Origin: Microbulbifer taiwanensis | GTDB taxonomy: Bacteria > Pseudomonadota > Gammaproteobacteria > Pseudomonadales > Cellvibrionaceae | Reading direction: 5' to 3' | DNA: 64,000 bases | Assembly (NCBI RefSeq): GCF_014904815.1 | Contig: NZ_JACZFR010000026.1 | Location: 1-64,000, forward strand | In this document: in pieces, positions 30,195 to 45,392 of the stretch | Layout: every line of letters begins with the position of its first letter | Numbering within the stretch: position 1 is the first letter of the stretch | Translations under genes and position numbers: made by a program | The notes under the pieces: model-generated | Database searches by the model: none | What the model was told of the DNA's origin: nothing | What the model saw: the letters and a program-made list of their open reading frames with translations, nothing else

Positions 30195-30223
30195 TTTTTG
30201 TCCTCCGTAACGGGAAATTCTGT

Positions 30224-30751
30224 CTAAGCGACGTCCAACTCTTCGAACTCAAGGCCGCTGAAATTGTGGCTCTCGATCAGCGCTCGGAAAGTATCGCTGC
30301 AGTAGATACCGGTAAAGTTGTCTTCCTGCAGCTTGAACACAGCGTTATCGGCGACTTTGGCCGCGCTGAAGACCGGGTTTGCCACTCAGCCGAAATCGTT
30401 GAAGGCGCTACGCTCTTTGTCGAGGGCGCCGGCCACATTGGTGATATTCCACAGCCACAGGGTTCTGCTACCGTACTGCAACGGCAGCAACTGGCCGTAC
30501 TGTTCGGCAACTGCCTTGATAGCCGTATGGGCACCCTCGGTCATCACCAGCGAGCCGATAGTAAGCAGCCCGATATCTGATTCCGGAATACCGGTATCCT
30601 CTTCATCGGCGACGATTTCCAGCGGCGCGGGCCATTCGAGCGGCTGACCTTTACAGCGTGCGGAACCGTATTGCGCGCGGGCCTTTTCCTCGTCTTTTAC
30701 CAGGTAGCCTTTGTATTCGTCGTATTTGGGCTGGATTGCGTAAACTTTCAT
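30224..30751 (-). pseudogene. Imm11-like immunity paralogue with in-frame TGA
   Basis: From ATG 30751 (AGGGGG 8 bases upstream) the frame reads 121 residues, including ESDIGLLTIGSLVMTEGAHT, then a TGA at 30386-30388. The same frame continues for 53 codons with VFKLQEDNFTGIYCSDTFRA and SGLEFEELDVA before a TAG at 30224-30226. The second part matches the C-terminus of the intact paralogue at 23639-24199, so this is a nonsense-mutated gene of about 175 codons. No selenocysteine context is evident. It lies 30 bases upstream of the giant helicase gene on the same strand. Confidence 0.75.
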
Positions 30752-30753
30752 CG

Positions 30754-30842
30754 TTACACCCCCTTCGCAAACATCATGACTTCTTTAATCCGCAAGCGCC
30801 GGTCTATGGAGAAGTCCCCAATTACCTGTTTCTTCGTAAGGA
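30754..30842 (-). pseudogene. Possible toxin-gene scrap upstream of broken immunity gene
   Basis: An open frame without its own start ends with TAA two bases before the broken immunity gene and reads TNLLTKKQVIGDFSIDRRLR followed by IKEVMMFAKGV. Position and composition mirror the remnant before the intact immunity gene. At about 29 residues this is suggestive only. Confidence 0.3.
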
Positions 30843-30869
30843 GGTTTGTCTTACTTCAAGATTAGTTTT

Positions 30870-31139
30870 TCATTGCTCGCCGTGTTTACGCCCTTTTCTT
30901 TTATGCACCTTGAAGCGCTCTCGGCGCTCTTCCGGGGTGTACTCCTCTGTCTCATCAGGAAAAAGCTCGGCGTCGCTCTTATCAAGACTGTCGGCATCGC
31001 CATATATTGCCCCGCCCGTCTCGAAGTCAGCCGGCTCATGGTTTTCACCGAAAATGTCGTCGACATGGCGTTTTGACTTCTTCTTCAGCCATTCCTTGAA
31101 GTCCGGAGAGTCTATCGGCGGTTTCTTGTCATCGCTCAT
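30870..31139 (-). CDS. Small hydrophilic protein of unknown function
   Basis: An 89-residue highly charged protein from ATG 31139, one base after the stop of the upstream gene, with AGGGA 8 bases upstream. It starts MSDDKKPPIDSPDFKEWLKK, has an acidic centre (DSLDKSDAELFPDETEEYTP) and a basic tail (KVHKRKGRKHGEQ). No fold is recognised. The tight coupling to the gene before it and its place in a toxin/immunity region suggest an accessory or immunity role, by position only. Confidence 0.6.
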   Translation of the reverse strand: MSDDKKPPIDSPDFKEWLKKKSKRHVDDIFGENHEPADFETGGAIYGDADSLDKSDAELFPDETEEYTPEERRERFKVHKRKGRKHGEQ

Positions 31140-31140
31140 A

Positions 31141-31704
31141 TCAGAGATCCCTATAGCAGAAGTTGCCACGTTCATTGAACGAGAATCCCGGCTTGCTCAG
31201 ATAATGGTCTCTCACTGCTGTATTCACCGGATTCATGATTCGCAGCTGGGTAGCACCGATGGCATTGGCGTACACAACACCGGCTGCAACGCTTATATCG
31301 GTCACCAGTCCATCCAGTGGGGTTCCCATGGGATGAGACTCGATATAGTCCAGCCTCACCTTTCCACCGCTCCACGTTGGACGGCCTATGCTCGCACCGC
31401 TCAACTCCAGGTCCTTGAACCAAATGGATAATTCAAAGCGTTTGGGGTGAGTACGATAGCTTTTCGCAATCTCTTCCCAGTCCCAAGCCACCCGTCTCGA
31501 GCCGGACCTTTCCCAGCTCTTGAGCTTTCTCTGTGCTTCAAAGGTGAATCCGTCAAGGCCAATATTTCCTCTCAGGATAGCTTGCCCTAACCTGTTCTTC
31601 AGAACTGGGGACAGCTGCTCATACGCGGCTTCGCGAGAAATTTGACGAACCATTTCAAACTTCTCCTTTACTTCCTTGTACGATGGTTTCAGTTGAGCGG
31701 ACAC
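31141..31704 (-). CDS. GNAT-like protein of unknown role, first gene of the left island operon
   Basis: A 187-residue protein, GTG start 31704 with an excellent AGGAGG 5 bases upstream. The N-terminal half is helical and basic; the C-terminal half (VYANAIGATQLRIMNPVNTA, then YLSKPGFSFNERGNF) looks like the end of a GNAT acetyltransferase fold, without a clear acetyl-CoA loop. Such proteins occur in polymorphic toxin loci. The GNAT call is tentative. A 7-base inverted repeat GGAAACT/AGTTTCC at 31734-31751 just upstream may be an operator. Confidence 0.55.
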   Translation of the reverse strand: MSAQLKPSYKEVKEKFEMVRQISREAAYEQLSPVLKNRLGQAILRGNIGLDGFTFEAQRKLKSWERSGSRRVAWDWEEIAKSYRTHPKRFELSIWFKDLELSGASIGRPTWSGGKVRLDYIESHPMGTPLDGLVTDISVAAGVVYANAIGATQLRIMNPVNTAVRDHYLSKPGFSFNERGNFCYRDL

Positions 31705-32199
31705 GTTATCCTCCTTGTTTTATTTATGTAGCCGGAAACTGTAAAGTTTCCTCGCCATTCAACTTTCAGAAATTTGCTCCAGAAATTTTCTGAGCATCTT
31801 CCGAGGTTTTTAATACCACATTCATCCTCTGTGGATTTTTTCCTATAAATATGGTTTGGTGCACATTCCCACGCCTGGGCGATCAGATCGTCTCCCCAAA
31901 GGTCATCAAGCTACTTGACGGTGTAACCCCACTTTGGAGTCTTTGGGCAATCGGCAGAGATCTGGTTGGCAATCAGGCCACTTCTTTGACCGCGCCTTCT
32001 ATTCCATCTTGCAAAATGAAAGATCTGACCCTGTGCCTTTTCCATTCGATATCCGGAGAGCATCCATGGCGGCATCCTCAAGGGACGAATTTTGTGCCAT
32101 AAATAGATCCGCCCCCTTACTGTTACTATCCCCTTTTTTGTTACTAAAACTTTGTAAATTCTTACGAAAAAAATCGTATTCAAGTCGCCCCCAAAATCT
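31705..32199. other. Intergenic region with no gene that I recognise
   Basis: This 495-base gap separates the two parts of the island and holds the promoter side of the GNAT-like gene. It has a palindrome at 31734-31751 and an imperfect one near 31769-31792. Both strands have short open frames (for example 90 codons on the minus strand ending at 31911, rich in Arg and Trp), but I cannot support any as a gene. Confidence 0.5.
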
Positions 32200-32862
32200 T
32201 CATGCTTCTACTTCCTCCTGCCCAGCGGCAGTTTCTAATGGTATAAATGTATCTCGCGCAATATTCCCGACAGCATTTGTCGCGACAGAATCAAAAGCAG
32301 CGCCGATAACACCACCTATGAGTGGAACCGCTTTCCCAAGGTTGACAATCCCTTTTTCGCCAAACTTGGTAAGAAGACGAAAACCCACCTTCTGATTTAT
32401 TGCGACTATAGTTTTCCCACTGATATTTTTTATCGCACTCTCAGCCATTTTCTGACCAAATACAATTCCAGCATTCTTTAGAATGTCCTTTGCTGAATTC
32501 CCAGCCATACAGGCATACACAAGAGCTTTTACTCGGTCATCCTTAACATCGTAACCACCCATTAGTGCAATAGCAGCAACCATGCGAACTTGAACAAAAA
32601 GAACAACAGAAATATTTGCAGGGATTGCTATAGGCAGCGTAAGGAGGCCCCCGAGTCCAGTTAAAAACCCGGTGGTACCCGACTTTAGATTCTGCCACCG
32701 AATTAATGAATCAACACGATCCCTTAGCGACTCAGAATCTGATTTAGGCATATAGTCATTCGCCATGTCAGAAGCCGAGTCTAAACCCGCACCCCCTGCC
32801 ACAGCCGCCCCATAGGCCCAATCCAGGGTTTTCATGATTGCTTCTTGTGTTATTTTTTTCAT
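32200..32862 (-). CDS. EcsC-family protein
   Basis: A 220-residue protein from ATG 32862 (GGAG 7 bases upstream). It has the EcsC pattern: a charged helical N-terminus, SLIRWQNLKSGTTGFLTGLG, a hydrophobic run (GGLLTLPIAIPANISVVLFV) and a late Gly/Ala-rich hydrophobic segment (VPLIGGVIGAAFDSVATNAV). EcsC-like proteins are membrane-associated with unknown biochemistry and appear in defence islands. It follows the KAP NTPase gene by 79 bases. Base composition is clearly more AT-rich than the flanking chromosome, indicating transfer. Confidence 0.82.
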   Translation of the reverse strand: MKKITQEAIMKTLDWAYGAAVAGGAGLDSASDMANDYMPKSDSESLRDRVDSLIRWQNLKSGTTGFLTGLGGLLTLPIAIPANISVVLFVQVRMVAAIALMGGYDVKDDRVKALVYACMAGNSAKDILKNAGIVFGQKMAESAIKNISGKTIVAINQKVGFRLLTKFGEKGIVNLGKAVPLIGGVIGAAFDSVATNAVGNIARDTFIPLETAAGQEEVEA

Positions 32863-32941
32863 ACACTCGCTCCGAAGATAGACACTTTCTATTCCAACTT
32901 TAGAACCCAGACTGGAGGCATCTAGCTCGCCAACATAACCA

Positions 32942-34369
32942 TCACATTGAAATATTAATCTTTTCAACAAGCTCGACTCGATTACATACCATCTGAATTA
33001 ACTTGGCGCCGTCCCAACCATCCCCCTTTGCGGCGATATCACGCACACGCGCAGCCGTTTCATAGCGAACATCTTCCCCCTCATATTTATCTCTAAGCTC
33101 ACACCAATATCGGAATAGCTCATCTTTATAACTTTCCTCACTAAGGGCGCCCACCATAACACCGGCGACTACAGAAAATGCCTTCGAATAGATCCCCTCA
33201 TCAAAATCTCGACCTAGCAAGAACATGATCACTTCGTTTACAAGCCGCATATCATTTCGGAAGCTCTCATAGAGGCTTGGGTTTGCATCTCGCAATACAA
33301 GTAGCGCCACTAAAAGCTGAGGGTTAAAGGTGTGCTTATCTGGGATAGAGCGAAAAATTAGTCTCAGGCGCAACATCAACTGATTAATGTCTCTAAGTTG
33401 ATAATTGAAGCGTTCGCTGAGCCAAACAAAAGTCTCTATCAACCAGCTAAACTCTGCCTTTAACGCTTGATGCGCCTCAAATCGCCTCTGAAAATAGGGC
33501 TGGCGCAACTGAGCTTCCACATACGCCCTAACATCCGGCACTCGCAATTGATAATCAAGATCTACAAATCGCTTAAGGTACCTTTCGCCATCAAAATTAG
33601 GGCCATACACTCCTTGCAGGCTCTTCCCCAACTGCTCTCGATTGATAGCAAGCACAAACACTAACCGATCTATGTCGAAGATATGCTTAATTCTCTCTAG
33701 CAACTCGATGGCATAGCTTGGACGACAACGATCGAGTTCATCAATAAAGATGATCAGGTTCGACTGCTCCGCTGGAAGCGCTTCTAGCGCCGACGCAAGC
33801 AACTCTTTAAAGCGTTTGAGGGTATTAACCTTGCTCTTGAATGAATCGACTATATTCCCTGCCACGTCACCCGCCGATGACGCGATTGCGCCTTCGACCG
33901 CCTTGTCGAGATCTAGCGCCCCTAAAGTTCCTGCTTTGACGGCAGCTACTGCGCTTGCTTTAAGCAGACCTGGTGCCAATGTTTTAGCTTTCTTCCAGGC
34001 CTTACCTGCCACCCCTTCTTCACGCTGCTCAGACAACCAGTCATCTAGCACCGAAAGTAGCGGCATTAGGGGATCATCACAAAAATCGCTTTCCCATGCA
34101 TTCAGAGCCAGGGAGACATGCCCATTACATACAAGATACTGCCGCCACAGCTTAATAAAAGTGCTCTTACCTCCGCCCCACGGAGCCTCTAAAGCAAGCA
34201 CTAGTGGCGCTTGAGCATTGAGCAAGACAGGTGTGAGATTCTCAATCTCTGCTCGACGTTCCAACTTGTCATTAGGATTGGGCCAAACCCCCTCCTCAAT
34301 GGCTAGCTTCGGCAACCGCAACTCTATTTCTTGACGAGACACCGAAGACTCTTCCGCTTCTTGTAACAT
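32942..34369 (-). CDS. KAP-family P-loop NTPase
   Basis: A 475-residue protein starting 9 bases after hsdS, with AGGGGG upstream. Walker A is LEAPWGGGKSTFIKLW near residue 65 and Walker B is LIIFIDELDRCRPSYAIELL near 220, both diagnostic of KAP NTPases, with KHIFDIDRLVFVLAINREQL following. Between them lies an Ala/Gly-rich insert (about 125-180) of the sort that often associates with membranes in this family. KAP NTPases recur in phage defence and plasmid maintenance. With EcsC it forms an AT-rich two-gene cassette at the tail of the restriction operon. Confidence 0.87.
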   Translation of the reverse strand: MLQEAEESSVSRQEIELRLPKLAIEEGVWPNPNDKLERRAEIENLTPVLLNAQAPLVLALEAPWGGGKSTFIKLWRQYLVCNGHVSLALNAWESDFCDDPLMPLLSVLDDWLSEQREEGVAGKAWKKAKTLAPGLLKASAVAAVKAGTLGALDLDKAVEGAIASSAGDVAGNIVDSFKSKVNTLKRFKELLASALEALPAEQSNLIIFIDELDRCRPSYAIELLERIKHIFDIDRLVFVLAINREQLGKSLQGVYGPNFDGERYLKRFVDLDYQLRVPDVRAYVEAQLRQPYFQRRFEAHQALKAEFSWLIETFVWLSERFNYQLRDINQLMLRLRLIFRSIPDKHTFNPQLLVALLVLRDANPSLYESFRNDMRLVNEVIMFLLGRDFDEGIYSKAFSVVAGVMVGALSEESYKDELFRYWCELRDKYEGEDVRYETAARVRDIAAKGDGWDGAKLIQMVCNRVELVEKINISM

Positions 34370-34378
34370 ACTGCCCCC

Positions 34379-35428
34379 TTAAAGCCGACCAGAGAAAGCC
34401 TTTTGACTAGTCGATTCGGCCAACTCAACGTCTTGAAGAATGCCAGAATTTTGACTCGATCTAATACTGCTTATTTTTTCAAAAAATTCAACAAACCCCT
34501 TCTGCTTATCAGGCTCAGGAACTGGAAGCAGAGTCCTGCTCATAATTTCCATAGTTATATATTTAGTGTTGGACCCTTTTGAAAATCTTTTGAGGTTAGA
34601 CAACTGGTATTCGAGTGCAAACTTATAAAATGGATAACTCCAACTTTCATCCTTCAAGGACAGCACATATGTCCGCTGATAGGCGTTGAACTTTCCTTTG
34701 TAATGCTTCACGTCATAATCGGCTTGAGCATTATTTCCAGCCAACAAGAGAGACTCTTGATCAAATGCAAAGTCATCGATTGCATATATTTCTTTGGCAC
34801 AAGTGAAGAATGGATATTTTCCACTCTCTACTGCAGCATTAGAATTTAAGCTTCCGGTTTTTATGTTAAATATTTCTGTCATCGGCAAAACCTCAACATT
34901 CTGAGGATTCGCGTTTGGATCACCGAACATATCCAGAAATACCGCACGCAGGAATTCGTCGGCGAGGGCGATGGCCTGCTGGCGTTTGCGGCGGATGACA
35001 TCGGCCTTGTCGAGGATGGCGGCGATGCGTTGCTGTTCTTTTAGGGACGGCAGCGGCACTGTCACCTTCGTGAGACCTTGACGGGTGATCTGGGGCTGAG
35101 CAGAGCCAGAAATTACGTCAGAGAAACCACGTTTCTTGAAGAAATAATACAAGTAGCGAATATCAACCTTGCTATGATCTAAGTCATCTAGAGCCATAGC
35201 ATTCCCATTTATGTATGACTTCGGCTCTGAAATATGCACGTTCCCGCACGTTGCACCTCGACACGTAATCATCAGCGTCGGGTTTTCATGGGTAAACTCA
35301 GAGAAAAAACCGATCTTTCCATTCGCTCCGTAAACAGGAAAACCTTCTTCAAGCAAGGCCGAAGCAGAAATCGTTTTCCACTGTTTGGGCCAACAGATTT
35401 CACTCAAATTGACGACTGGATGACTCAC
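34379..35428 (-). CDS. hsdS: Type I restriction-modification specificity subunit HsdS
   Basis: A 349-residue specificity subunit with two target recognition domains, each about 150 residues, and a central conserved coiled helix (LPSLKEQQRIAAILDKADVI, then RRKRQQAIALADEFLRAVFL). Recognition domain 1 has FPVYGANGKIGFFSEFTHEN; domain 2 (about 175-330) is AT-rich and probably exchanged. The GTG start overlaps the hsdM stop (GTGA), so translation is coupled. Length is short for the family (often 380-450), but both halves are present. The target sequence cannot be read from the protein. Confidence 0.92.
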   Translation of the reverse strand: MSHPVVNLSEICWPKQWKTISASALLEEGFPVYGANGKIGFFSEFTHENPTLMITCRGATCGNVHISEPKSYINGNAMALDDLDHSKVDIRYLYYFFKKRGFSDVISGSAQPQITRQGLTKVTVPLPSLKEQQRIAAILDKADVIRRKRQQAIALADEFLRAVFLDMFGDPNANPQNVEVLPMTEIFNIKTGSLNSNAAVESGKYPFFTCAKEIYAIDDFAFDQESLLLAGNNAQADYDVKHYKGKFNAYQRTYVLSLKDESWSYPFYKFALEYQLSNLKRFSKGSNTKYITMEIMSRTLLPVPEPDKQKGFVEFFEKISSIRSSQNSGILQDVELAESTSQKAFSGRL

Positions 35429-37005
35429 AGCATCCCCTCCAGCACTTTCAGCTCAGTAATAATCTCGTCTTCCAGCCTCAACAGCCGCTCCAGAATCTCC
35501 TTGGGTGGATCGTACTGCTCCTCCTCGTACACCACCTCCTTATAGCGGTTGATGGAGAGGTCGTACTTGTTGCCGGCGACATCCTTCGCATCCACCACAA
35601 AGGCCTTTTGGGTCTTGTCGCCGAACCGCTTCCCAATCTCCTCTGCATCGGCATTAGCCAGCACCAGCTCGCGGTAGGCCCGCCACTGCTCCAAGGCATC
35701 CGGCAGGTCGTTGTCCTTGATCGGACTGCGCTTGTCGTCCAGGGAGTAGCCGTCCGCCTGCAGGTCGTAGAACCAGACTCTCTCGGTGCTGCCGCCCTTG
35801 GTGAACAGCAGCACGGCGGTGGAGACGCCGGCGTAGGGTTTGAAGACGCCGGACGGCAGGCTGACGATGCCCTCCAGCTGGTTGTTTTCCAGCAGTTCTT
35901 TTCTCAGTTGCTGGTGGGCCTTGGAGGAGCCGAACAGCACGCCATCCGGCACGATGACCGCGGCGAAGCCGCCGGGCTTGAGGGCGCGCAGGATATGGGC
36001 GACGAACAGCAGCTCGGTCTTCTTCGTCTTGACCATGCCGAGCAGGTCCGGGTTGGTGTTGCTCTCGTCCAGGCTGCCCTTGAACGGCGGGTTGGCGAGG
36101 ATCACATCGAAGAAATCCTGTTCCTGACGGGGGAAGTTCTCCCGGACGGACTTGTTGAGGCTGTCCTGGTAGTGGATATTGGCCCCGGCTACGCCATGCA
36201 GCAGCATGTTCATGCTGGACACGCGCAGCATGGTGGTGTCGAAGTCGAAGCCCCAGAACATGTCGCTGTTGATATGGTCGCGGTAGGGCTCCAGCAGGTC
36301 GCCGCTGTAGTGGGGGTTGCCGTCCTCGTCGGTAAAGGTGCCGGACTCGCTCGAGTGCTCCCGGTTCAGGTATTCCATGGTGCGGGCGAGGAAGCCGGCG
36401 GTGCCGCAGGCGGGGTCGCAGATCACCGCGTCCGGCTGCGGGTCGGCCATGGCGATCATGGTGTCGATGATATGGCGCGGGGTGCGGAACTGGCCGTTGA
36501 TGCCGGCGGTGGTGAGTTTGCTGAGCAGGTACTCGTAGATATCGCCCTTGACGTCGGACTCGGTGAGCGGCAGCTTGTCGATCATTTCCACCGCGGCCAC
36601 CAGTACGGATTCGTTCTTGATCTCGATATCCGCGTCCTGCATATATTCGCCGATGCCGGCCAGGGCGTGCGCGGCGGTGCCGTCTTCGCCGATTTCCTCT
36701 CGGCCCAAGCTGGCGAAGAAGGGGAAGACGTTTTTCTTCAGGTGCGCGAGCATCTCCTTGCCAGCCATGTTCTTGAAGTTCTTCCAGCGCAGCAACTGGC
36801 CTTTGTAATCTTCCGGAAAGAGGCGTTCCACCTGTTTGCCGGTTTTTGCGGCCTTGCGCTCGGCCACCTCTTCCTGAATATCGAGCATGCGCGCGAACAT
36901 CAGGTAGCTGATCTGCTCGATCACGGTGAGGGGGTTGGCGATACCGCCGGTCCAGAATTTCTCCCAGAGTTTGTCGATATCGTTGCGGATTTGTCCGGTT
37001 AGCAT
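35425..37005 (-). CDS. hsdM: Type I restriction-modification methyltransferase subunit HsdM
   Basis: A 526-residue N6-adenine methyltransferase. The N-terminal HsdM domain begins LTGQIRNDIDKLWEKFWTGG; the SAM motif is DPACGTAGFLARTM and the catalytic motif is ILANPPFKG (NPPF). It methylates adenine at the target recognised by HsdS and forms the nuclease with HsdR. The coding order is hsdM-hsdS. The 5' end has a damaged partner at 38451: the remnant there begins MPNGQIRNGLD after a similar upstream sequence. Confidence 0.94.
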   Translation of the reverse strand: MLTGQIRNDIDKLWEKFWTGGIANPLTVIEQISYLMFARMLDIQEEVAERKAAKTGKQVERLFPEDYKGQLLRWKNFKNMAGKEMLAHLKKNVFPFFASLGREEIGEDGTAAHALAGIGEYMQDADIEIKNESVLVAAVEMIDKLPLTESDVKGDIYEYLLSKLTTAGINGQFRTPRHIIDTMIAMADPQPDAVICDPACGTAGFLARTMEYLNREHSSESGTFTDEDGNPHYSGDLLEPYRDHINSDMFWGFDFDTTMLRVSSMNMLLHGVAGANIHYQDSLNKSVRENFPRQEQDFFDVILANPPFKGSLDESNTNPDLLGMVKTKKTELLFVAHILRALKPGGFAAVIVPDGVLFGSSKAHQQLRKELLENNQLEGIVSLPSGVFKPYAGVSTAVLLFTKGGSTERVWFYDLQADGYSLDDKRSPIKDNDLPDALEQWRAYRELVLANADAEEIGKRFGDKTQKAFVVDAKDVAGNKYDLSINRYKEVVYEEEQYDPPKEILERLLRLEDEIITELKVLEGML

Positions 37006-37029: not shown

Positions 37030-37632
37030 TTATAAGTTGTTCAGCAGCAGCCTGGCCAGGTCGGCCTCCAACTGCGCCATGGTGATCTGTGGGTGAACTT
37101 TGCCGCACTGGTACAGGTGCAGCAGTTGTTGGTAGTGAACGCTGCTTCCTTCACGCTCACAAAACGCCTTAAAGGCCTCGGGAGCGAGCGAGTGTTTGAG
37201 CAATATGGCCGTGGCCTGCACCAGCGACTGCGTATCCCGCCAGTGGATGAACGCGGCGAGGCGGTCCTTGACCACATCCTCCGCCCGCAAAATCGGTATG
37301 CGGCCTTCCGGCAGCTCGGCGGTGGTGGTGCGCTGAATCAGTTCATTGCCCACCGACAGGGGCGCCGGCGGGAATTCCACGGTGATGTCCGTAGTGGCAT
37401 TGACATACACCCGCCCCTTTTTGGTAAAGCCGAGCTGGGCCATGGCGCGGTGCAGTTGAACGGGCGTCTGGTAGTTGGTGTTGACCATGTCGATGTCTTT
37501 GGTGAGGTAGAGGTTCTCACTGTAAATCTCTACGGCCAGGCCGCCGACCAGCACCACCTCGATACCCTGGTTGTGCAGGTGTTCGGCAACCCTGGCGGCG
37601 AGTTCGGTAATGGTCGCGCGGCTGAAATCCAT
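37030..37632 (-). CDS. Nucleotidyltransferase-fold protein, likely toxin-type partner
   Basis: A 200-residue protein of the minimal nucleotidyltransferase type: VVLVGGLAVEIYSENLYLTK followed by DIDMVNT gives the G-G and DxD pattern of the catalytic strand, and DITVEF may supply a third acid. A helical C-terminus follows. Its ATG lies in a TAATG overlap with the winged-helix gene upstream, a typical arrangement of AbiE-like or MNT toxin-antitoxin pairs. Activity, such as nucleotide addition to tRNA or protein, is inference. Confidence 0.75.
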   Translation of the reverse strand: MDFSRATITELAARVAEHLHNQGIEVVLVGGLAVEIYSENLYLTKDIDMVNTNYQTPVQLHRAMAQLGFTKKGRVYVNATTDITVEFPPAPLSVGNELIQRTTTAELPEGRIPILRAEDVVKDRLAAFIHWRDTQSLVQATAILLKHSLAPEAFKAFCEREGSSVHYQQLLHLYQCGKVHPQITMAQLEADLARLLLNNL

Positions 37633-38018
37633 TATTCGCCTTTACCCTTTTTCCCACCCTTGCCTTCCGCTTCCCGCACCGCCACCAGGGGCTTGCCGGC
37701 CTGGCGCGGGCGGGTGCGCTGCACCAGCAGGCGGTTGCGCAGCTCTGGCGGATAGGCGGCCACGGCGGCCTTCAGCAGGGCCTTGAGCGGCTCCATAAAC
37801 GGGTAGCGGGGATTCAGCTCGTAGTTCCTGACCTTGCCGATCAGCTGGCTGACCACAACGCCATCCTCCTCCAGCCGGGCCAGTTGCTTTTGCACCGGGT
37901 TGGTGGGTATACCGTAGAACTCGGCGATTGCCTTGCCGTAGCCCGCCCCGCGCAGGAGCAGGTACAGCAGCGCCTTTTCCTGGCTCTCTGCGCGGAGTAT
38001 GCCTTTGAGTACGAACAT
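37632..38018 (-). CDS. Winged-helix DNA-binding protein, likely antitoxin/regulator
   Basis: A 128-residue winged helix-turn-helix: ESQEKALLYLLLRGAGYGKA, recognition region IPTNPVQKQLARLEEDGVVV and wing LIGKVRNYELNPRYPF. The C-terminus is Lys/Gly-rich. Translationally coupled to the nucleotidyltransferase gene. Two inverted repeats just upstream (38033-38067) are probably its autoregulatory operators. The pair is inserted between rmuC and hsdM of the restriction operon. Confidence 0.78.
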   Translation of the reverse strand: MFVLKGILRAESQEKALLYLLLRGAGYGKAIAEFYGIPTNPVQKQLARLEEDGVVVSQLIGKVRNYELNPRYPFMEPLKALLKAAVAAYPPELRNRLLVQRTRPRQAGKPLVAVREAEGKGGKKGKGE

Positions 38019-38032
38019 GGCGGCCTCTATAT

Positions 38033-38067
38033 ACCAAATATTGGTTAATATAAACCATTTTATGGTT
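38033..38067. promoter_or_regulatory. Tandem inverted repeats upstream of winged-helix/NTase pair
   Basis: ACCAA-ATA-TTGGT at 38033-38045 and AACCAT-TTT-ATGGTT at 38053-38067 share the ACCA half site and sit 15-49 bases before the winged-helix start. They are good candidates for operators bound by that protein, and the AT-rich spacer would suit a promoter. Confidence 0.6.
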
Positions 38068-38233
38068 CATGAAAAACCAGCCAGCGGGGTGAAGTCATTT
38101 CTGGATAAGTGCCGAACCCTCCCCATACCGTAAATCTCTCTAACCATCTGTTTTTCATAACTTTTCAATGAAACCGAAGCCGCATTTTGTCAGGAAAAAG
38201 GTGGCCTTTTCCTGACATGGCGACACATCCCAG

Positions 38234-38275
38234 ATGATGGGCACGTCGCTGCGCTCCTTTGCCCATCCTACGGTC
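38234..38275. repeat. Palindromic intergenic repeat of a second kind
   Basis: GATGGGCA at 38234 pairs with TGCCCATC near 38271, with CGTCGCTGCGCTCCT between, followed by CTACGG. Elements with this core are common in gammaproteobacterial genomes. It lies just beyond the end of the hsdM/hsdR remnant. Confidence 0.5.
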
Positions 38276-38282
38276 GGACAGC

Positions 38283-38451
38283 TCACGCATCGGGCTGCCA
38301 GAAGGGCTTGAGCACAGCCACCAGCTCGGTTACGTCCTCGAGGCTGAATACACCGCCCCCCCTCGAGGGAAACGCTGGTAAAGGGCGCATCGTGGAGTTT
38401 TCCCTCGATGCCGCTACCGTCAAGGCCGTTGCGGATTTGGCCATTTGGCAT
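38283..38451 (-). pseudogene. Deletion remnant: hsdM start fused to hsdR end
   Basis: From ATG 38451 the frame reads MPNGQIRNGLDG, matching the HsdM start (LTGQIRND in the intact gene), then KLHDAPFTSVSLEG, matching the HsdR end (KLYDAPFTSVSHEG). After the G-run near 38355-38360 the frame shifts and continues GVFSLEDVTELVAVLKPFWQ to TGA at 38283-38285, matching the last part of HsdR (GVFQPDDVDDLVAVLKPFLK). Upstream bases GAGAGTTAAGC also resemble those before hsdM (GAGTTACCC). A type I locus was therefore once duplicated or exchanged here and then collapsed. Confidence 0.75.
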
Positions 38452-38453
38452 GC

Positions 38454-40175
38454 TTAACTCTCTACTTGTTCGCTGATTAATTCCTGTGTCACGGCTTCAC
38501 TCTCACCACTCTGCGGACGCTTCTCCTCATGGCTCCCGCTCTGGTCATCGCGGGGGATATAGTCGATCTCCAGCTCGGCCTTCTCGGTAAAGTAACCGGG
38601 CAGTTCGGCCCGGATGGCCGGCGCCAGATTCTTGAACTCGCCCACCTGCTTGACCAGGTTGCCGCGGCCGCTGACCAGTTGGCCCTCGGCCTTGGCATAG
38701 GCTTCGGAGGCCTTTTCCAGGCCTTTCTTGATGCCCTCGAAGCTGCCGAGAAAGCCATTGAGCTTTTTGAACACACTCTCGGCCTTGCTGGCCAGGGCGG
38801 CGGTGTGTTTGTTCTGGTCCTCGAAGCGCCACAGCTGGCGGACGATGTTGAGACTGGTGAGCAGCGTGGTGGGCGTGGCCACCAGTACGTTGTTCTCGAT
38901 CGCCATCTGGAACAGGCGCTCATCCGCCCTGAGCGCCTCGACGAAGGCGGATTCGATGGGGATAAACAGGAACACCATCTCCGGGGAGTTGAGTTCGTTG
39001 ATTTTGTAATAGTCCCGGTCCGCCAGTTCCTTGATACGGTCCGCCACCGCCTGCACGTGGTCTTTCAGGGCCAGCTGGCGTTCGGTCTCGTCCTCGCTGT
39101 TGACGTAGCGGGTATAGGCGTTGAGGGAGACCTTGGCGTCGATGATCAGGTGCTTGCCCTGGGGCAGGTTGACGACCACATCAGGGCGCTGCTTGCCGTC
39201 TTCGGTGTTGAAGGATTTCTCGCGCTCGTAGTCCCTGCCCTGCTGCAGGCCGGAGCGGTCCAGCACGCTCTCCAGCACCATTTCCCCCCAATTGCCCTGC
39301 AGCTTCTTCTGGCCGCGCAGGGCGGTGGAGAGTTCGTGGGCCTCGGTGGTGATCTGCTGGTTGAGCGCTTTCAGCTGTTCCAGCTCTTGGCGCAGCTCGC
39401 CGCGCTGGCTGGTTTCGCGGTGGTGGATGTCTTGCACTTCTTTCTTGAAGCTGTCGATGGACTCCTTGAAGGGGGCCATCAGAGCGGACAGGTTGCTCGA
39501 ACTGCTGTTCTGAAAGGCCTTGCTCTTCTGCTCGAGGATTTCATTGGCGAGCACCTTGAATTCCTCGCCCAGGGCTTTCTTTTGCTCCTCGAAGTGCGCC
39601 AGCTGCGCGCGGTGACTCTCGTCCCGCTCCGCCAGCGAGGTTTGCAGCTTCGCGTGTTCCGCGTTCAGCGCACTGTGCTGCCGTTGCAGCTGTTCGTATT
39701 TCTGCTCCAGGTTCTGGTACTGCTCGCGCGCATCCGCCAGTCGCTGCTGCAGGTCCCGCTGGGTTTCCTGCTGCTGTTCGCGACTCTGCTGTAGTTCGGT
39801 CCGGGTGGCGTGCAGGCTGTTTTCCGCGGTTCGCAGGTCCGCGCGGGTCTTTTCCAGGCTCTGCTCCAGTTGTTGGCTGCGCGCGCCGAGTTCGGCCTTG
39901 CCCATCTGTTCGGATTCCAGGCGCGTAGCCAGTGCGCGGTGCTCCAGGCGCAATGCGCCGAGCTCTTCGCTGGTGCTATCCAGCTGTTGCTGGATCAGAT
40001 TCTTTTGTTGCTCCAGTTGCTCCGCATTGGCGCGCGCCAGGGAGAGCTCCTGCTGCACCTGCGCTAGGGTTTTGCCAGCGCGCAGGCTGGCCAGCAGATA
40101 GGCGATGGCAGCCCCAATCAGGGCAATGGCAGCGGCGGCGATCCAGTATTGGTTCGGCAGTTCCTGTAATGTCAT
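38454..40175 (-). CDS. rmuC: RmuC-family DNA recombination protein
   Basis: A 573-residue protein: a membrane helix (about 12-30), a coiled coil of more than 150 residues rich in Gln/Glu/Leu, and the RmuC nuclease-like domain (GNWGEMVLESVLDRSGLQ, PDVVVNLPQGKHLIIDAKVS with Asp and Lys of the PD-(D/E)xK-like core, FLFIPIESAFVEAL). RmuC limits DNA rearrangement at repeats in E. coli. Here it sits between hsdR and hsdM, 38 bases downstream of hsdR, as part of the restriction operon, so it may help process or contain cut DNA. Confidence 0.9.
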   Translation of the reverse strand: MTLQELPNQYWIAAAAIALIGAAIAYLLASLRAGKTLAQVQQELSLARANAEQLEQQKNLIQQQLDSTSEELGALRLEHRALATRLESEQMGKAELGARSQQLEQSLEKTRADLRTAENSLHATRTELQQSREQQQETQRDLQQRLADAREQYQNLEQKYEQLQRQHSALNAEHAKLQTSLAERDESHRAQLAHFEEQKKALGEEFKVLANEILEQKSKAFQNSSSSNLSALMAPFKESIDSFKKEVQDIHHRETSQRGELRQELEQLKALNQQITTEAHELSTALRGQKKLQGNWGEMVLESVLDRSGLQQGRDYEREKSFNTEDGKQRPDVVVNLPQGKHLIIDAKVSLNAYTRYVNSEDETERQLALKDHVQAVADRIKELADRDYYKINELNSPEMVFLFIPIESAFVEALRADERLFQMAIENNVLVATPTTLLTSLNIVRQLWRFEDQNKHTAALASKAESVFKKLNGFLGSFEGIKKGLEKASEAYAKAEGQLVSGRGNLVKQVGEFKNLAPAIRAELPGYFTEKAELEIDYIPRDDQSGSHEEKRPQSGESEAVTQELISEQVES

Positions 40176-40213: not shown

Positions 40214-43200
40214 TCACTGGGCTTCGGTGGCGGTCGCGTCTTTGAGGAAGGGCTTCAACACTGCGACCAGATCGTCCACATCGTCCGGCTGGAAGACACC
40301 ATCCACCCCCTCGTGGGACACGCTGGTAAAGGGCGCATCGTAGAGTTTTTCCACGGTGATGGTGCCGTACTGGGCAATATGGTTCTTGAGCAGGTTCATA
40401 AACCGCACCTGCTTGTGGGTGAGCTGCGGGTGAGCGTGGAGGAAGCCGGTGAAGTGGGCCTCCACGGCCAGCGGGTCCATGCCCACCAGTTCGCGCAGGG
40501 TGAGCTGCAGTTCGCCGGCGGTGCGGCCGTAGAACTGGTTCAGGGCTTCCAGGCTGACGCCCGGGTGCTCGGTGAGAATGCTGGAGGCGAGGTTTTTCAG
40601 TTCGTCGTCCACGATGGGCTCGCCCTTGCGCAGCTTCTGCAGTACCGGGTTGCGCTCCAGCATCTGGTCGAGGATGGCTTTTACCCGGCGACGGTAGAGG
40701 GTGGCCTCATTGGCGCCGATGGTGACTTTGCGCTCCTTCTCCTGAATGCCGCCGTCGCTGGTGCTTGTGCCGGGCAGGATATAGCCGCCCCCGCCGCCGG
40801 ACTGGCGGTATTTCATGATGCCGCGCAGTTCGCGGCGGGCCTGCTCCAGGCGTTCGACGCTGGGGTTCTGCCAGAAGTCGGCGCTGCGCACCTCGTCGAT
40901 CAGTCTGTCTTTCTGGCGCACGGCCTGGATATTGACGGCGAGCGTGTCCAGCTCCTGCAGCAGTTGGTCGCGGCCATCGTCGAAACAGCTGGCCTGCTCC
41001 ACCAGGCAGCGCTGGATATTGGCAATCAGACGGTCGAGGGCGATGGCGATGGCGAATTTGTCCGGCAGCACGCGGGCGCCCATCAGCGGCGCGATGGTGG
41101 TTTTGAGGATATGCTGGGTATTGCCGTCCATGCGCTGCAGGGCGTCGGTCTGCTGCAGCTGGTGCACGCTGCGCAGTTCCCGGCGCACGGCGATGCTGTC
41201 TTCGGGCAGGTCGTTGATATCCGCCTTGAGCAGTGCCAGGGCTGTGTCGAAGCCCTCGCGGTGATTTTGCTTGAGGCTGGCCAGGGCCAGCTCCAGGCGG
41301 GCTTCGAACAAGGTCTGCAACAGAGATTTGCCACCCACGTCCTCGGCTTCCCGGTACTCCTCCTCGAAGAAGTCGAAGTTGCCGTAGTGGTCGAAGATCA
41401 GGAATTCAGTCTTGTGTTTGCCGGCGCCGAACAGGTTTTCCCGCAGGCGGGTGCCGCGGCCGATCATCTGCCAAAACTTGACCCAGGATTTCACCGGGCG
41501 CGCGAACACCAGGTTGACCACTTCCGGCACGTCGATGCCGGTGTCCATCATATCGACGGAGATAGCGATGCGGAAATCGTTGCCGGGCTTCTTGAAGTCG
41601 CCGATCAGGCTCTCCACCTTGGGCACGGCGTTGTGGATCACCTTGCAGACGCGGGTGCCGTACTGGGGGTAGAGTTTGCAGAAGAGTTTTTCCAGCTGTT
41701 CCGCGTGCTTCTGGTTCTGGGCGAAAACGATGCTCTTGCCCACCAGGGAGCCGGTTTCGTCCTGGATGCCGTTGTCGACCAGGTTTTCGAGGATGATGCG
41801 GTCGGTGTCTTCGCTGTAGATCCTGCGGCCGATATCCTTGCCGGCGAACTCTGCCCTCTTGGCCTCTTCCTCGCCGAGATCCTCTTCCAGCTGGCGGCGC
41901 TGCTCTTCGCTCAGATCCTGGTAGTGGATGCCCTCGCGCAGGAATTCGGTGGTGAGGTCCTTTACCCGGAAGGGCACCAGGTACGGCGGCTCGTTGTCAA
42001 TGGCTTCACTCAGGCCGAACTCGAAGGTGGGATCGGTGCTCTCGCAGCCGAACAGCTCGAAGGTGTTGCGGCTGATAAATTTCACCGGGGTGGCAGTGAG
42101 GCCCAGCTGCAGCGCATCGAAGTAGTCGAACAGGTCGCGGTATTTGTTGTAGATGCTGCGGTGGGATTCGTCGGCGATGACCAGGTCGAAAAAGCCCACG
42201 TCCAGCTGCGCGAAGCGGTTCATCATGCTGGGATAGGTGGCGACGTAGATGCGCACGGACTGGTCGATCTTGCTGGTCTCGCCGATCACACAGCGGGGCT
42301 CGCTGGGCAGATAGTCCTTGAAGGCGTTGTTGGCCTGGGTGCGCAGTTCCTTGCGGTCGCACAGAAAGAGTACGCGCTTGCCCCAGTTGGCGCTCAGCAA
42401 GAGTTCGCTGAGGGCGATGGCTACGCGGGTTTTGCCGGTGCCGGTGGCCTGCACGATCAGGGCGCTGCGGCGCTGCTCCTGGAAGCGGTTGGCCACGGCC
42501 TTGATGGCCTCAATCTGGTAGGGGCGGCCTGCGATATCGGTTTTGGGGTTTAGCTGCTCCGGGTGCGGCTGGCGGTACTGGCGCTGGTAGATCAGGTACT
42601 CGAGGCTGTCTTTGCTGTAGAAGCCATACACCGAACGGTAGGTGTTGTACTGCACATCGTCCCAGATAAAGGTTTCGTAGCCGTTGCTGTAGAAGATCAC
42701 CGGGCGGCGGTAGCCCATCTGTTCCAGGCCGTCGGCGTAGATGCGGGCCTGCTCGCGGCCGGCCTGCAGATTTTGCTCGCCGGACTTTTTGGCCTCGATC
42801 ACCGCCAGGGGCTGGCCGTCGTCGCCCCAGAGCACGTAGTCGGCCCTGCCCTTGCCGCTTTTATTGGAGGGCTCCGGCACCTCGAATTCGAGGGTAACCT
42901 GCTCGGGGTTATTGAGATCCCAATCGGCCTTGGCCAGAAGGGTATCGATCAGCAAGCGGCGGGTTTTGGCTTCGTCCCACTGCAGGGAGTCCGCTACCCG
43001 ATGGCTCTGGGCCTGCTTGCGCGCGGCATCCTGTTTGTGGGGCGCTTCGATGTTGGCGCTGTTGCGGGTGCGCTCTTTTTCCAGCTGCTCGATCACTTCC
43101 TCAAGCCGGGCAGCCTGCTCTTTGACTTCCGTCTGGTATTTGCTGACGGATTTTTTCAGCTGGCTCAGTTGCGCGGTGGGATCGGCTACCTCCTTGAACG

Positions 43201-43597
43201 GCGCTATGTCCGACTTGGTTTTGCCATAGTACTTGAGCGCCATATACAGGGCGAGCTGGTGGGCGGTGCCCAGGGCCATCTGTGCGCTGCGCAGTTCCCC
43301 TTTGGCGCCATGCGCTGTCTCGTTACCCTGTACGCGCAAGAAGTTGATCTGGTGGATCAGGGAGCGGTCGACGCAGTCCTCGTATACGCGGCTTTTTAAC
43401 AGCTCGTAGAAGCTGGCCTGGGGCAGGCGCGGCAGGTACTCCTCCTTGTAGATACTCTTGGTGACCTCTTCGGCGAAGCCTCGCAGGCGCGTGAGGGCGC
43501 TACCCGGGTCTACATGGAGCACCGCCTCGGCCAGGCCGGCGAGGTTGGCCAGGGTTTCGTTTTCCGGGCGGAGGAATTCGAAGTTCTGCGATTTCAT
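40214..43597 (-). CDS. hsdR: Type I restriction endonuclease subunit HsdR
   Basis: A 1127-residue motor and nuclease subunit. Domains: DUF4145-like N-terminus (about 10-125), coiled coil (about 140-180), nuclease domain with YVLWGDDGQPLAVIEAKKSG (D...ExK), SF2 helicase with VQATGTGKTRVAIALSELLL, DESHRSIYN and MIGRGTRLRENL, and an EcoEI-type C-terminal domain. It translocates DNA and cuts unmethylated targets with HsdM and HsdS. The start is ATG 43597 rather than 43624, because the predicted sigma-54 transcription start (about 43616) lies downstream of the latter. Confidence 0.93.
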   Translation of the reverse strand: MKSQNFEFLRPENETLANLAGLAEAVLHVDPGSALTRLRGFAEEVTKSIYKEEYLPRLPQASFYELLKSRVYEDCVDRSLIHQINFLRVQGNETAHGAKGELRSAQMALGTAHQLALYMALKYYGKTKSDIAPFKEVADPTAQLSQLKKSVSKYQTEVKEQAARLEEVIEQLEKERTRNSANIEAPHKQDAARKQAQSHRVADSLQWDEAKTRRLLIDTLLAKADWDLNNPEQVTLEFEVPEPSNKSGKGRADYVLWGDDGQPLAVIEAKKSGEQNLQAGREQARIYADGLEQMGYRRPVIFYSNGYETFIWDDVQYNTYRSVYGFYSKDSLEYLIYQRQYRQPHPEQLNPKTDIAGRPYQIEAIKAVANRFQEQRRSALIVQATGTGKTRVAIALSELLLSANWGKRVLFLCDRKELRTQANNAFKDYLPSEPRCVIGETSKIDQSVRIYVATYPSMMNRFAQLDVGFFDLVIADESHRSIYNKYRDLFDYFDALQLGLTATPVKFISRNTFELFGCESTDPTFEFGLSEAIDNEPPYLVPFRVKDLTTEFLREGIHYQDLSEEQRRQLEEDLGEEEAKRAEFAGKDIGRRIYSEDTDRIILENLVDNGIQDETGSLVGKSIVFAQNQKHAEQLEKLFCKLYPQYGTRVCKVIHNAVPKVESLIGDFKKPGNDFRIAISVDMMDTGIDVPEVVNLVFARPVKSWVKFWQMIGRGTRLRENLFGAGKHKTEFLIFDHYGNFDFFEEEYREAEDVGGKSLLQTLFEARLELALASLKQNHREGFDTALALLKADINDLPEDSIAVRRELRSVHQLQQTDALQRMDGNTQHILKTTIAPLMGARVLPDKFAIAIALDRLIANIQRCLVEQASCFDDGRDQLLQELDTLAVNIQAVRQKDRLIDEVRSADFWQNPSVERLEQARRELRGIMKYRQSGGGGGYILPGTSTSDGGIQEKERKVTIGANEATLYRRRVKAILDQMLERNPVLQKLRKGEPIVDDELKNLASSILTEHPGVSLEALNQFYGRTAGELQLTLRELVGMDPLAVEAHFTGFLHAHPQLTHKQVRFMNLLKNHIAQYGTITVEKLYDAPFTSVSHEGVDGVFQPDDVDDLVAVLKPFLKDATATEAQ

Positions 43598-43626
43598 ATA
43601 AAAAATTCTATCCATACCGGCCATAG

Positions 43627-43643
43627 TGCGAAGAGCGTGCCAG
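43627..43643 (-). promoter_or_regulatory. Predicted sigma-54 (-24/-12) promoter of the restriction operon
   Basis: On the minus strand CTGGCACGCTCTTCGCA matches the sigma-54 consensus YTGGCACGRNNNTTGCW at all but two of its defined positions, with GG (43641-43640) and GC (43629-43628) exactly 12 bases apart. It begins 3 bases after the stop of the sigma-54 activator gene, and the predicted start point (about 43616) is about 19 bases before the hsdR ATG. Confidence 0.75.
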
Positions 43644-43646
43644 CTT

Positions 43647-45131
43647 TCACTTGAGGCCGAGTTTTTCCATTAGATTGGTCAGCGTCTGGTAGTTGTTGAG
43701 ACCCAGCAGTGTCGCGGCGCGGGTCTTTTTGCCCTGTGCCGATTCCAGCGCGCGGGGGATATAGTGGCGCCAGATATCGTCGCAAAGTCCTTGTATATCA
43801 ACGCCTTTGGACAGATCCCGCCCCAGCAGGTCGCGCTCCTTCTCCGGCATATGGAACAGAGCCTGGCGCAGGTCCACAGCGTCTATGGAATCGGTTTGGC
43901 TCCACAGGGCGGCGCGCAGCAGGGTCGAGTGCAGTTCCCGCATATTGCCCGGCCAGGGGTGACACAGGATAAGATTTCTTGCCTCAACAGAAATTTTCTT
44001 ACCTTGCAGATGGGCGTCGTGAGCGGCGACGTTCGCCATTATGTGGTCGGTGAGAAGGTTGAGATCCCCTTCCCGCTCGCGCAGTTGCGGCAGGTGTAAT
44101 ACGCCCACCGCCACGCGGTAGAAGAGATCCTCGCGGAAGCTGCCCTCGGCCACCATCTGCATTAGGTCGCGGTTGGTGGCAGTGACAATGCGCACATCCA
44201 CCCGGCACTCCCTGCCACCACCAACCGGCGTGAAGCTGCCGTCCTGCAGCACCCGCAACAGCCGCACCTGAACCGCGGGCTCCAGCTCGCCAAATTCGTC
44301 CAGGAACAGGGTTCCGCCGTCGGCCTGCTGAAACACACCTTCCCTATCGCTGCTGGCGCCGGTGAAAGCGCCCTTCCTGTGGCCAAACAGAATGGAGTCG
44401 ATCAGTTCCGCGGGAAAAGCGCCGCAATTCACCGCGACAAATGGACGATCCGATCTTTCGCTGGCGTTGTGGATTGCGCGTGCAAACAGCTCCTTGCCGG
44501 TACCCGATTCGCCGTAAATCAGTACCGGGATATCCCGCGCGGCCAGGATACTGGCCTGGGACTTGAGGCGCTGCATTCTGGGATTCTGTGTGACTATGTC
44601 ATCAAAGGCGGCATCTGCGGGCGGAGCGGATGCCGCCAGTTGGGTCATGGAGCGGGACGAGACTTTATCCGCGACGGGCACATATTCGGCAGCGATATCA
44701 AAGGGTATCTGCGTTTGCTGAACCCCCTCCTCGCGCGAAACCTGCCAGAAAGTGGCGGGATGGCGGGTCTTGCCCAGCAGTATCCATACCGCCTGCATGG
44801 CCGGCGTCCCCGGGCTCAGCAATATGTGTATTTCGGCCTCAGAATTTTGCCCGCGCAGATCGAGCAGTACTTGATTAGCGGCTTGATAGATTTCTCCGAA
44901 ATTGACCGGAGAAGATAAGGTGATTTGGTGGCCGGTTACCGGAATCGAGGTGCGTTGCCGCAACCAATCGAGATAAGGGGCAATGTCAGAGGATGGATAA
45001 TTGTAGAGCAGCTCGACGCTGTTGAACCTTTCCTGTTCAAGAGCCTCCGCAATGGGTCCCAACTGGGGGTTCGCCGGCTGGCAGGCAGCGAGATCCTGGC
45101 CCCCGATCCAACTGATTAAAATTCGCTCCAC
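43647..45131 (-). CDS. Sigma-54-dependent activator with RtcR-like CARF sensor domain
   Basis: A 494-residue protein with a GTG start. Residues 1-150 look like a CARF Rossmann domain as in RtcR: ERILISWIGGQDLAA, then EAEIHILLSPGTPAMQAVWI. The AAA+ domain has Walker A YGESGTGKELFARAIHNAS, the sigma-54 loop HRKGAFTGASSDREG, Walker B GGTLFLDEFGEL, and an R-finger region. A Fis-type helix-turn-helix ends the protein (ARAATLLGLNNYQTLTNLME-like). Such proteins activate sigma-54 promoters on binding a ligand; RtcR responds to RNA ends. The hsdR gene with a sigma-54 promoter lies directly downstream, making it the likely target. Confidence 0.88.
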   Translation of the reverse strand: MERILISWIGGQDLAACQPANPQLGPIAEALEQERFNSVELLYNYPSSDIAPYLDWLRQRTSIPVTGHQITLSSPVNFGEIYQAANQVLLDLRGQNSEAEIHILLSPGTPAMQAVWILLGKTRHPATFWQVSREEGVQQTQIPFDIAAEYVPVADKVSSRSMTQLAASAPPADAAFDDIVTQNPRMQRLKSQASILAARDIPVLIYGESGTGKELFARAIHNASERSDRPFVAVNCGAFPAELIDSILFGHRKGAFTGASSDREGVFQQADGGTLFLDEFGELEPAVQVRLLRVLQDGSFTPVGGGRECRVDVRIVTATNRDLMQMVAEGSFREDLFYRVAVGVLHLPQLREREGDLNLLTDHIMANVAAHDAHLQGKKISVEARNLILCHPWPGNMRELHSTLLRAALWSQTDSIDAVDLRQALFHMPEKERDLLGRDLSKGVDIQGLCDDIWRHYIPRALESAQGKKTRAATLLGLNNYQTLTNLMEKLGLK

Positions 45132-45315: not shown

Positions 45316-45392
45316 TGGTCGGGGTGGCCGGATTTGAACCGACGACCACCACACCCCCAGTGTGGTGCGCTACCAGGCTGCGCTACACCCCG
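45316..45392 (-). tRNA. tRNA-Pro (GGG)
   Basis: A 77-base cloverleaf with encoded CCA on the minus strand: acceptor CGGGGTG pairing with CACCCCG, D arm GCGCAGCCTGGTAGCGC, anticodon stem CCACA/TGTGG with loop CTGGGGG (anticodon GGG), and T arm with GGTTCAAATCC. Downstream of merR and ihfA as in pseudomonads. Its 3' end faces the accessory island. Confidence 0.96.

Follow-up and report, generated by a model that had tools for sequence, protein, structure and literature searches.

The 64,000-nucleotide stretch of Microbulbifer taiwanensis DNA analyzed here (contig NZ_JACZFR010000026.1; henceforth the window) carries a type I restriction-modification (R-M) operon that directly follows a gene for a sigma-54 activator with a predicted CARF sensor domain. 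On the minus strand lie, in order, a tRNA-Pro gene, the 494-residue activator, a sigma-54-type site, hsdR, an RmuC-family gene, genes for a winged-helix and a nucleotidyltransferase-like protein, hsdM and hsdS (Table 1), and the type I gene set hsdR, hsdM and hsdS is complete in the window according to Pfam and PADLOC. The source genome (G000; 4.82 Mb in 115 contigs) contains rpoN and, on a separate contig, a true RtcR, and the nearest named relatives are Microbulbifer. Published work is cited below by PubMed Central (PMC) identifier.

Table 1. Genes, domains and candidate control sites at the activator-hsdR locus, in window coordinates (HTH, helix-turn-helix; UAS, upstream activating sequence; IHF, integration host factor; ORF, open reading frame; E, expect value).
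Feature	Position	Strand	Remarks
tRNA-Pro gene	45316-45392	(-)	
CARF-AAA+-HTH sigma-54 activator (PADLOC RtcR_PspF2)	43647..45131	(-)	494-aa ORF, GTG start
CARF sensor domain, residues 1-150	44682..45131	(-)	
AAA+ sigma-54 interaction domain and lid, residues 179-432	43836..44597	(-)	Pfam PF00158, PF25601; Foldseek matches NtrC1, FleQ, others
C-terminal Fis-type HTH region, residues 446-491	43659..43796	(-)	HTH_8 below threshold; model helices 446-464, 469-475, 481-491
Candidate enhancer (UAS), 36-bp inverted repeat, activator codons 377-388	43968..44003	(-)	synonymous constraint
IHF-like site TATCAACGCCTTT, activator codons 442-446	43796..43808	+ strand reading	one mismatch to WATCAANNNNTTR
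Sigma-54 -24/-12 site CTGGCACGCTCTTCGCA	43627..43643	(-)	3 nt past activator stop
Conserved in-frame ATG, likely hsdR start codon	43613..43615	(-)	12 nt past -12 C
Second in-frame ATG (MKSQNFEF)	43595..43597	(-)	matches start of two activator-unlinked HsdR homologues
hsdR, type I restriction subunit	40214..43615	(-)	PADLOC REase_I E 0
RmuC-family protein, ShdA-like operon position	38454..40175	(-)	PF02646 E 1.7e-93; ShdA comparison from PMC11090510
Winged-helix protein	37632..38018	(-)	weak Pfam wHTH matches; PADLOC PDC-M05A
Nucleotidyltransferase-like protein (DUF2204)	37030..37632	(-)	
hsdM	35425..37005	(-)	PF02384, PF12161
hsdS	34379..35428	(-)	PF01420; PADLOC

The initial annotation of this DNA had credited the activator with a CARF-like N-terminus, an AAA+ domain with a GAFTGA loop and a C-terminal Fis-type helix, and these assignments hold. 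The ORF contains LLSPGTPAMQAVWI and GAFTGA, and structure comparison of the modeled N-terminal part finds a CARF fold, the closest structures being those of Csm6 proteins, some of them with cA6 or cyclic hexa-adenylate analogues bound; a sequence search of solved structures with the CARF part gave no credible match. Pfam recognizes Sigma54_activat (E 4e-68), and the 50 Foldseek matches listed for the full-length protein are AAA+ activators. The Pfam models HTH_8 (19.7 bits; cut-off 22) and RtcR (19.9 bits; cut-off 23.1) stay below threshold, and the PADLOC profile RtcR_PspF2--CARF_AAA_HTH (PDLC01995) matches over its full length, HTH included (residues 3-493, E 4.6e-210). With 331.5 bits against the NCBIfam RtcR equivalog, below the cut-off of 650, the protein is not RtcR proper, and its neighbors are the tRNA-Pro gene and hsdR, with no rtcBA adjoining.

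A contig scan for relatives kept 80 loci, which together with two loci of the genome itself make 82 rows: 58 full-length family members, defined by at least 380 bits to the window protein and including it, and 24 controls (the genome's own RtcR, the truncated relative L058 and 22 other activators). These loci are related, and counts over them are not independent. In 46 of the 58 family loci, the window among them, hsdR is the next gene (L055 is included in this number and L010 is not). The initial annotation had also placed a sigma-54 site, CTGGCACGCTCTTCGCA, 3 nt past the activator stop codon, and the spacing of its -24 GG and -12 GC is indeed correct. When scored against the sigma-54 consensus with weights that we set ourselves (maximum 30.5), the motif alone is not rare, since 3 sites in the 64 kb, this one included, reach 28.5. 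It is its position and its conservation across the family that make it more than a chance match: a best site of at least 25.5, starting between -5 and +30 nt from the activator stop, is present in 51/58 family loci (window included) versus 1/24 control rows. In the 46 loci with an hsdR-like start, which were picked by a regular expression that takes in the hsdR stub of L010 and misses L055, the -24 GG and -12 GC are always intact, and the -12 box reads TCGC in 37, TTGC in 6 and TGGC in 3. The distance from activator stop to site varies across loci, taking nine values from 0 to 13 nt. Together with the rpoN gene and the CARF fold, this conservation of the site, which the initial annotation had suggested seeking ahead of hsdR in other genomes, leaves its central claim, that hsdR is driven by sigma-54 and an RtcR-like activator, standing as the likely wiring of the gene.

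Alternatively, hsdR could be constitutive, transcribed by read-through or from a sigma-70 promoter next to a vestigial sigma-54 site. Among 369 genomes of the class, the HsdR family is found in 4 at E 1e-200, with the activator adjoining in three; in the fourth (L115:1-1483) only about 40 C-terminal codons of the activator are left, and hsdR and the sigma-54 site persist, as a vestige might. The spacing from -12 to ATG in that locus is nevertheless 18 nt, as might be expected after loss of control, and the site is conserved on chromosomes ranging from those of gammaproteobacteria to those of deltaproteobacteria and, by eye, on the plasmid of a betaproteobacterium (L123), which makes a vestigial site highly improbable. 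Clear members of the activator family occur in six of the 369 genomes (G000, G134, G091, G249, G303 and G189, the last with an internal stop), a number that is our reading of a gap in the scores and omits G122 (447.9 bits); the formal tally of 306/369 at E 1e-100 counts other activators.

Sigma-54 promoters usually place their start (+1) 12 bases after the -12 C, which in the window corresponds to about 43616. An in-frame ATG is located 12 (33 loci), 13 (7 loci) or 14 nt (1 locus) from this C in 41 of the 46 loci with an hsdR-like start, and in 34/39 distinct leaders, where only ATGs lying 15 or 18 nt upstream of the second ATG were taken as in frame; irrespective of frame, 44/46 loci have an ATG at this distance. 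The 28 distinct 12-nt spacers between -12 and ATG have a mean identity of only 48%, and the window and Microbulbifer litoralis, identical at 1395 of 1485 positions of the activator coding sequence (CDS), agree at 5 of 12 positions of a spacer whose length is unchanged. With this fixed spacing, and if the start follows the 12-nt rule, the sigma-54 mRNA should begin 1-2 bases before the AUG, and a leaderless hsdR transcript with the ATG at 43615 as start codon appears likely. The 19-nt leader of the initial annotation extends to the ATG at 43597, but a conserved in-frame ATG is already present at 43615, one base past the predicted start.

Translation could instead begin at that second AUG (43597) after a leader of 18-20 nt, with the 5' AUG serving as a translation-helping element or reflecting an accident of promoter placement. 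Consistent with this, L124 and L125 are related operons on E. coli and Methylocella plasmids, accompanied by a WYL-domain gene but by no CARF activator, and their HsdR homologues begin at the second ATG, without the six-residue extension. The any-frame count also exceeds the in-frame count by three, as if even an unusable 5' AUG mattered (L008, L009, L046), and codon 3 of the extension (window 43607-43609) is AGA in 32/38 loci, including the window and GC-rich Pseudomonas, which suggests selection at the nucleotide level near the mRNA start. Against it, the first ATG is in frame in the 41 loci mentioned, 15 or 18 nt upstream of the second, and the 18-nt extensions are free of stops in 38/38 translated; moreover, the long-leader loci L036 and L042 put a Shine-Dalgarno-like sequence ahead of the first ATG, and the window shows no good Shine-Dalgarno ahead of the second (both by eye). 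We view initiation at the second AUG as possible but doubtful, and retain 43615 as the likely start.

An inverted repeat that covers both the -12 element and the position of the Shine-Dalgarno was considered as part of the proposal and dropped, the window having none (stem 2.5, p 0.96). As a separate observation, such a repeat is significant (shuffle p < 0.05) in 22/39 distinct leaders (e.g. L012, L017, L045), with arms that differ between lineages yet stay complementary, and it could hide the Shine-Dalgarno in read-through mRNA.

Synonymous identity, corrected for amino acid, was compared along 57 activator CDS using the 1265 pairs with less than 66% protein identity. The top peak spans codons 379-390 (excess 0.23, z 5.0) and the second codons 437-448 (excess 0.14), followed by 0.08 in a segment overlapping the first peak and by 0.05. 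The sequence of the first patch, GATAAGAAAATTTCTGCTGATGCAAAAAATCTTATC, is an inverted repeat of 36 bp. In the window it lies about 370 bp upstream of the expected start, and the genome holds no second match to it even when 3 mismatches are allowed. Consensus codons of the repeat are used in 313 of 398 cases, compared to 156.8 expected from each gene's own usage for the same amino acids, although this consensus was drawn from the sequences on which it was tested, in contrast to that of IHF. The IHF consensus is matched exactly in 29/51 family CDS, where 3.04 would be expected, and 44/51 match it if one mismatch is tolerated. In the second patch, some 186 bp ahead of the expected start, it is the fixed positions of this consensus that are conserved, and most of the N positions vary more. 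Six loci whose CDS lacks the repeat had been set aside before matrix building; no exact IHF match was found in these six.

In 8 of 11 held-out loci, the best repeat match of the whole locus falls 353-380 nt before the activator stop (weakly in L086), and in 4/11 an IHF-like site lies 146-170 nt before it; relative to the stop, L089 has its best repeat match at -4 and L120 at +67, and L091 has none in the whole locus. The six peptide patterns of the scan that fetched the relatives do not overlap, by our count, codons 377-388 or 442-446. Among the set-aside loci, L029 has the repeat at +9, L048 and L049 have GGTAA-N6-TTACC palindromes at the stop, and L047 a weaker one. Hence five loci without the repeat in the CDS (L029, L048, L049, L089 and L120) carry it, or a similar palindrome, beside the stop codon. 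Taken together, these data suggest the 36-bp repeat inside the activator CDS as a likely enhancer.

The frozen patches could alternatively reflect RNA structure, an antisense element or a codon-usage effect, given that the repeat sits within an ORF and could also pair in RNA. The first patch is, however, palindromic as DNA, and similar GRTAA-N6-TTAYC sites occur at or past the stop in L029, L048, L049 and L120; the second, as described above, is conserved where IHF is selective and freer at most N positions. We consider such a non-enhancer origin very unlikely.

On this evidence, we find it fairly probable that the activator gene is a self-contained alarm cassette, comprising its own enhancer, IHF bend and promoter, which gives rise to a leaderless hsdR mRNA and to restriction made mostly on alarm. 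Gene order, sites and conservation are seen in the sequence, and from them we infer binding, looping, RpoN dependence and the start site. By analogy with RtcR, the CARF domain would keep the AAA+ ring inactive as long as no nucleotide or RNA-end ligand is bound. The active protein would then occupy the inverted repeat within its own coding sequence, IHF would bend the DNA between repeat and promoter, and the ring would open the RNA polymerase-sigma-54 complex waiting just past the activator stop codon. Transcription would start 1-2 bases before the AUG of hsdR and probably continue into the genes that follow. Since hsdR transcription would depend on the activator, restriction would probably be made on alarm rather than constantly; and since the control sites lie inside the sensor gene and immediately past its end, the cassette would bring under its control whatever operon follows it.

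Several observations weigh against this proposal. The -12 element of the window is TCGC instead of TTGC, its IHF-like site has one mismatch, and the expected start depends on the usual 12-nt rule. The in-frame arrangement at 12-14 nt is missing in 5/46 loci: L036 and L042 have spacings of 36 and 24, respectively, in L008 and L009 the ATG at 12 runs straight into a TAG, and in L046 the ATG at 14 is out of frame. Ordinary leaders are seen in L121 and L123, the Vibrio and Vitreoscilla plasmid members. The repeat is absent from the CDS, and from its convincing vicinity, in L043, L054 and L091, and weak in L047, and the matches within held-out CDS are partly expected from protein homology, which does not explain those in non-coding DNA.

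The same cassette appears to head other defence operons elsewhere. Among the 12 family loci in which hsdR is not the next gene, L006 has the order hsdM-hsdS-hsdR, with hsdM first behind the sigma-54 site; L011 and L041 head MoxR-vWA-HEPN genes (Pfam), followed by hsdR in L011; seven (L010, L029, L040, L047, L048, L049 and L060) are of a kinase-operon type; and the next genes of L043 and L054 face the opposite way. The kinase-operon label rests on Pfam for L060 (VWA, PP2C and Ser/Thr kinase, with a helicase-like fourth gene by PADLOC MkoA), on the fourth gene alone by Pfam for L010, on annotation for L119 and L120, and on roughly similar ORF sizes for L029, L040, L047, L048 and L049. A quick tree with long branches, in which some downstream labels come from ORF sizes, shows 10 changes of the downstream operon (by starred branches, at least 9 for hsdR), against a mean of 11.5 for shuffled labels, which indicates that the labels hardly cluster. 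Two close activators occur in Marinomonas piezotolerans: that of L032 precedes hsdR, and that of L040 a VWA-PP2C-kinase-helicase operon (labeled by ORF size). In L010 (7473-7802), a 20-codon hsdR stub stands behind a decayed sigma-54 site and is followed by a second sigma-54 site 41 nt ahead of the next operon, a scar left by the exchange of one operon for another. No members were found in E. coli genomes by a DNA search with a Pectobacterium copy (E 1e-20), or on phages at E 1e-80.

A further reading, which we hold only tentatively, is that of a portable alarm cassette in which translation of HsdR does without a Shine-Dalgarno, is confined to alarm transcripts and perhaps works best where the triggering RNA damage has altered the ribosomes. 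The altered-ribosome step is its boldest part, and the MazF stress-ribosome results could not be reproduced by other laboratories, according to a review (PMC9031893).

If the entire hsdRMS operon were silent until alarm, the chromosome would be unmethylated and induction would lead to self-restriction, that is, to abortive infection. The gap between hsdR and hsdM is at most 46 nt in 12/19 activator-linked loci with no gene between the two, and in L006 hsdM comes first behind the sigma-54 site, both of which favor joint silence. The window, in turn, has a 435-bp gap (38019-38453) ahead of the hsdM group that could hold a separate hsdM promoter, though none beats chance, and read-through from the activator gene could supply M and S; we judge a wholly silent operon distinctly unlikely. 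Induction of hsdR alone, by virtue of a separate hsdM promoter, may also occur; no consistent promoter was found.

Between the RmuC gene and hsdM, the winged-helix and nucleotidyltransferase-like genes (37030-38018) form a pair whose arrangement resembles that of a toxin-antitoxin pair. Behind hsdS (24354-34369) lie further candidate defence genes, encoding a KAP NTPase (PDC-S20), an EcsC-like protein (PDC-S29) and a 1946-aa DUF4011/MTES_1575 helicase-nuclease (PDC-S37). An attachment repeat of the tRNA-Pro gene was sought as the mark of an island and rejected, because the 24-base stretch of the tRNA 3' end is single-copy in the window at up to 3 mismatches.

Regarding the inducing signal, removal of the CARF domain makes RtcR constitutively active (PMC9650030), and we expect the window activator to contain the same kind of CARF switch. 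The RtcR CARF binds tRNA halves ending in a cyclic phosphate (PMC7790460); tRNA fragments bound the CARF domain and not full-length RtcR, were insufficient for activation in vitro, and RtcA and RtcB were needed (PMC9650030). The RNA-end model is therefore unsettled even for RtcR, and the ligand here could be a cyclic oligoadenylate or a similar second messenger rather than a 2',3'-cyclic phosphate RNA end, as the proximity of the modeled CARF domain to Csm6, ligand-bound forms included, might suggest. Oligoadenylates do not, however, activate RtcR (PMC9650030), and RtcR proteins, most of which lack a basic residue after strand 4, may bind other ligands (PMC4012209); the family studied here has the motif SPGTPAM, with an invariant lysine (K121) further on. 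Furthermore, a search for three families, Csm1, Cmr2 and SMODS synthase, found none in the genome, which weighs mildly against oligoadenylates. We regard such a messenger as unlikely.

In the usual teaching, type I restriction is constitutive and is held in check after translation. The window contains a real, conserved and probably regulated restriction locus of an already predicted kind, and to this the analysis adds a sensor gene with its own putative enhancer that ends in the promoter it would drive, and an AUG fixed at the expected start site. With the candidate control sites of an inducible type I system named to the base, the published RtcR-like hypothesis can be put to a direct test. 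The layout of the cassette would also account for the presence of one kind of CARF sensor in front of very different defence operons, and fixing the start at the AUG through a sigma-54 promoter, if true, would be an unusual way to tie the translation of a dangerous enzyme to one promoter.

The initial annotation's statement that it knew of no described restriction system so controlled is not supported as a claim of novelty. RtcR-like CARF-AAA-HTH proteins were reported to be often associated with R-M systems, with sigma-54 activation predicted (Makarova 2014, PMC4012209), and RtcR homologues were described ahead of type I R-M and RmuC/ShdA genes, the signal being proposed to consist of tRNA fragments with a cyclic phosphate (CoCoNuTs paper, 2024, PMC11090510). 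The portions of both papers at hand give no actual promoter or enhancer sequence, and searches of the open-licence PMC literature, as judged by titles and the beginnings of abstracts, listed nothing on an enhancer within such an activator ORF or on a leaderless hsdR transcript. As a member of the RtcR_PspF2 family with R-M neighbors, the window protein differs from what was known of that family by the addition of the ORF-internal candidate enhancer, the IHF-like site and the AUG placement.

The RtcR gene of the same genome is divergent from an rtcB-like gene, which we take to be rtcB, whose sigma-54 site is followed by a 62-nt leader with a Shine-Dalgarno-like AAGGA (by eye) and no AUG at the start site. 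In common with the window locus, the RtcR/rtcBA system has a CARF-AAA+-HTH activator, a sigma-54 promoter and, in the rtc control region, an upstream UAS and IHF site (PMC9650030). Classical sigma-54 promoters (NtrC, NifA, PspF) present the same order of enhancer, IHF bend and -24/-12 elements, with the enhancer about 100-150 bp away (PMC7057263), compared to about 370 bp and a position inside the activator CDS here. The superoperons of CoCoNuT, type I R-M and Shield genes likewise begin with an RtcR homologue and combine type I R-M with an RmuC-like gene on one strand (PMC11090510), whereas no CoCoNuT gene was recognized among the 12 window proteins scanned (24354-45131; 2023 copy of PADLOC). 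Finally, the type I R-M loci with a WYL-domain gene share the order hsdR-hsdM-hsdS and an HsdR about 44% identical, and differ from the window locus in that hsdR adjoins the WYL-domain gene (divergent in L124) and no CARF activator, and in that HsdR lacks the M(D)RIxF extension.

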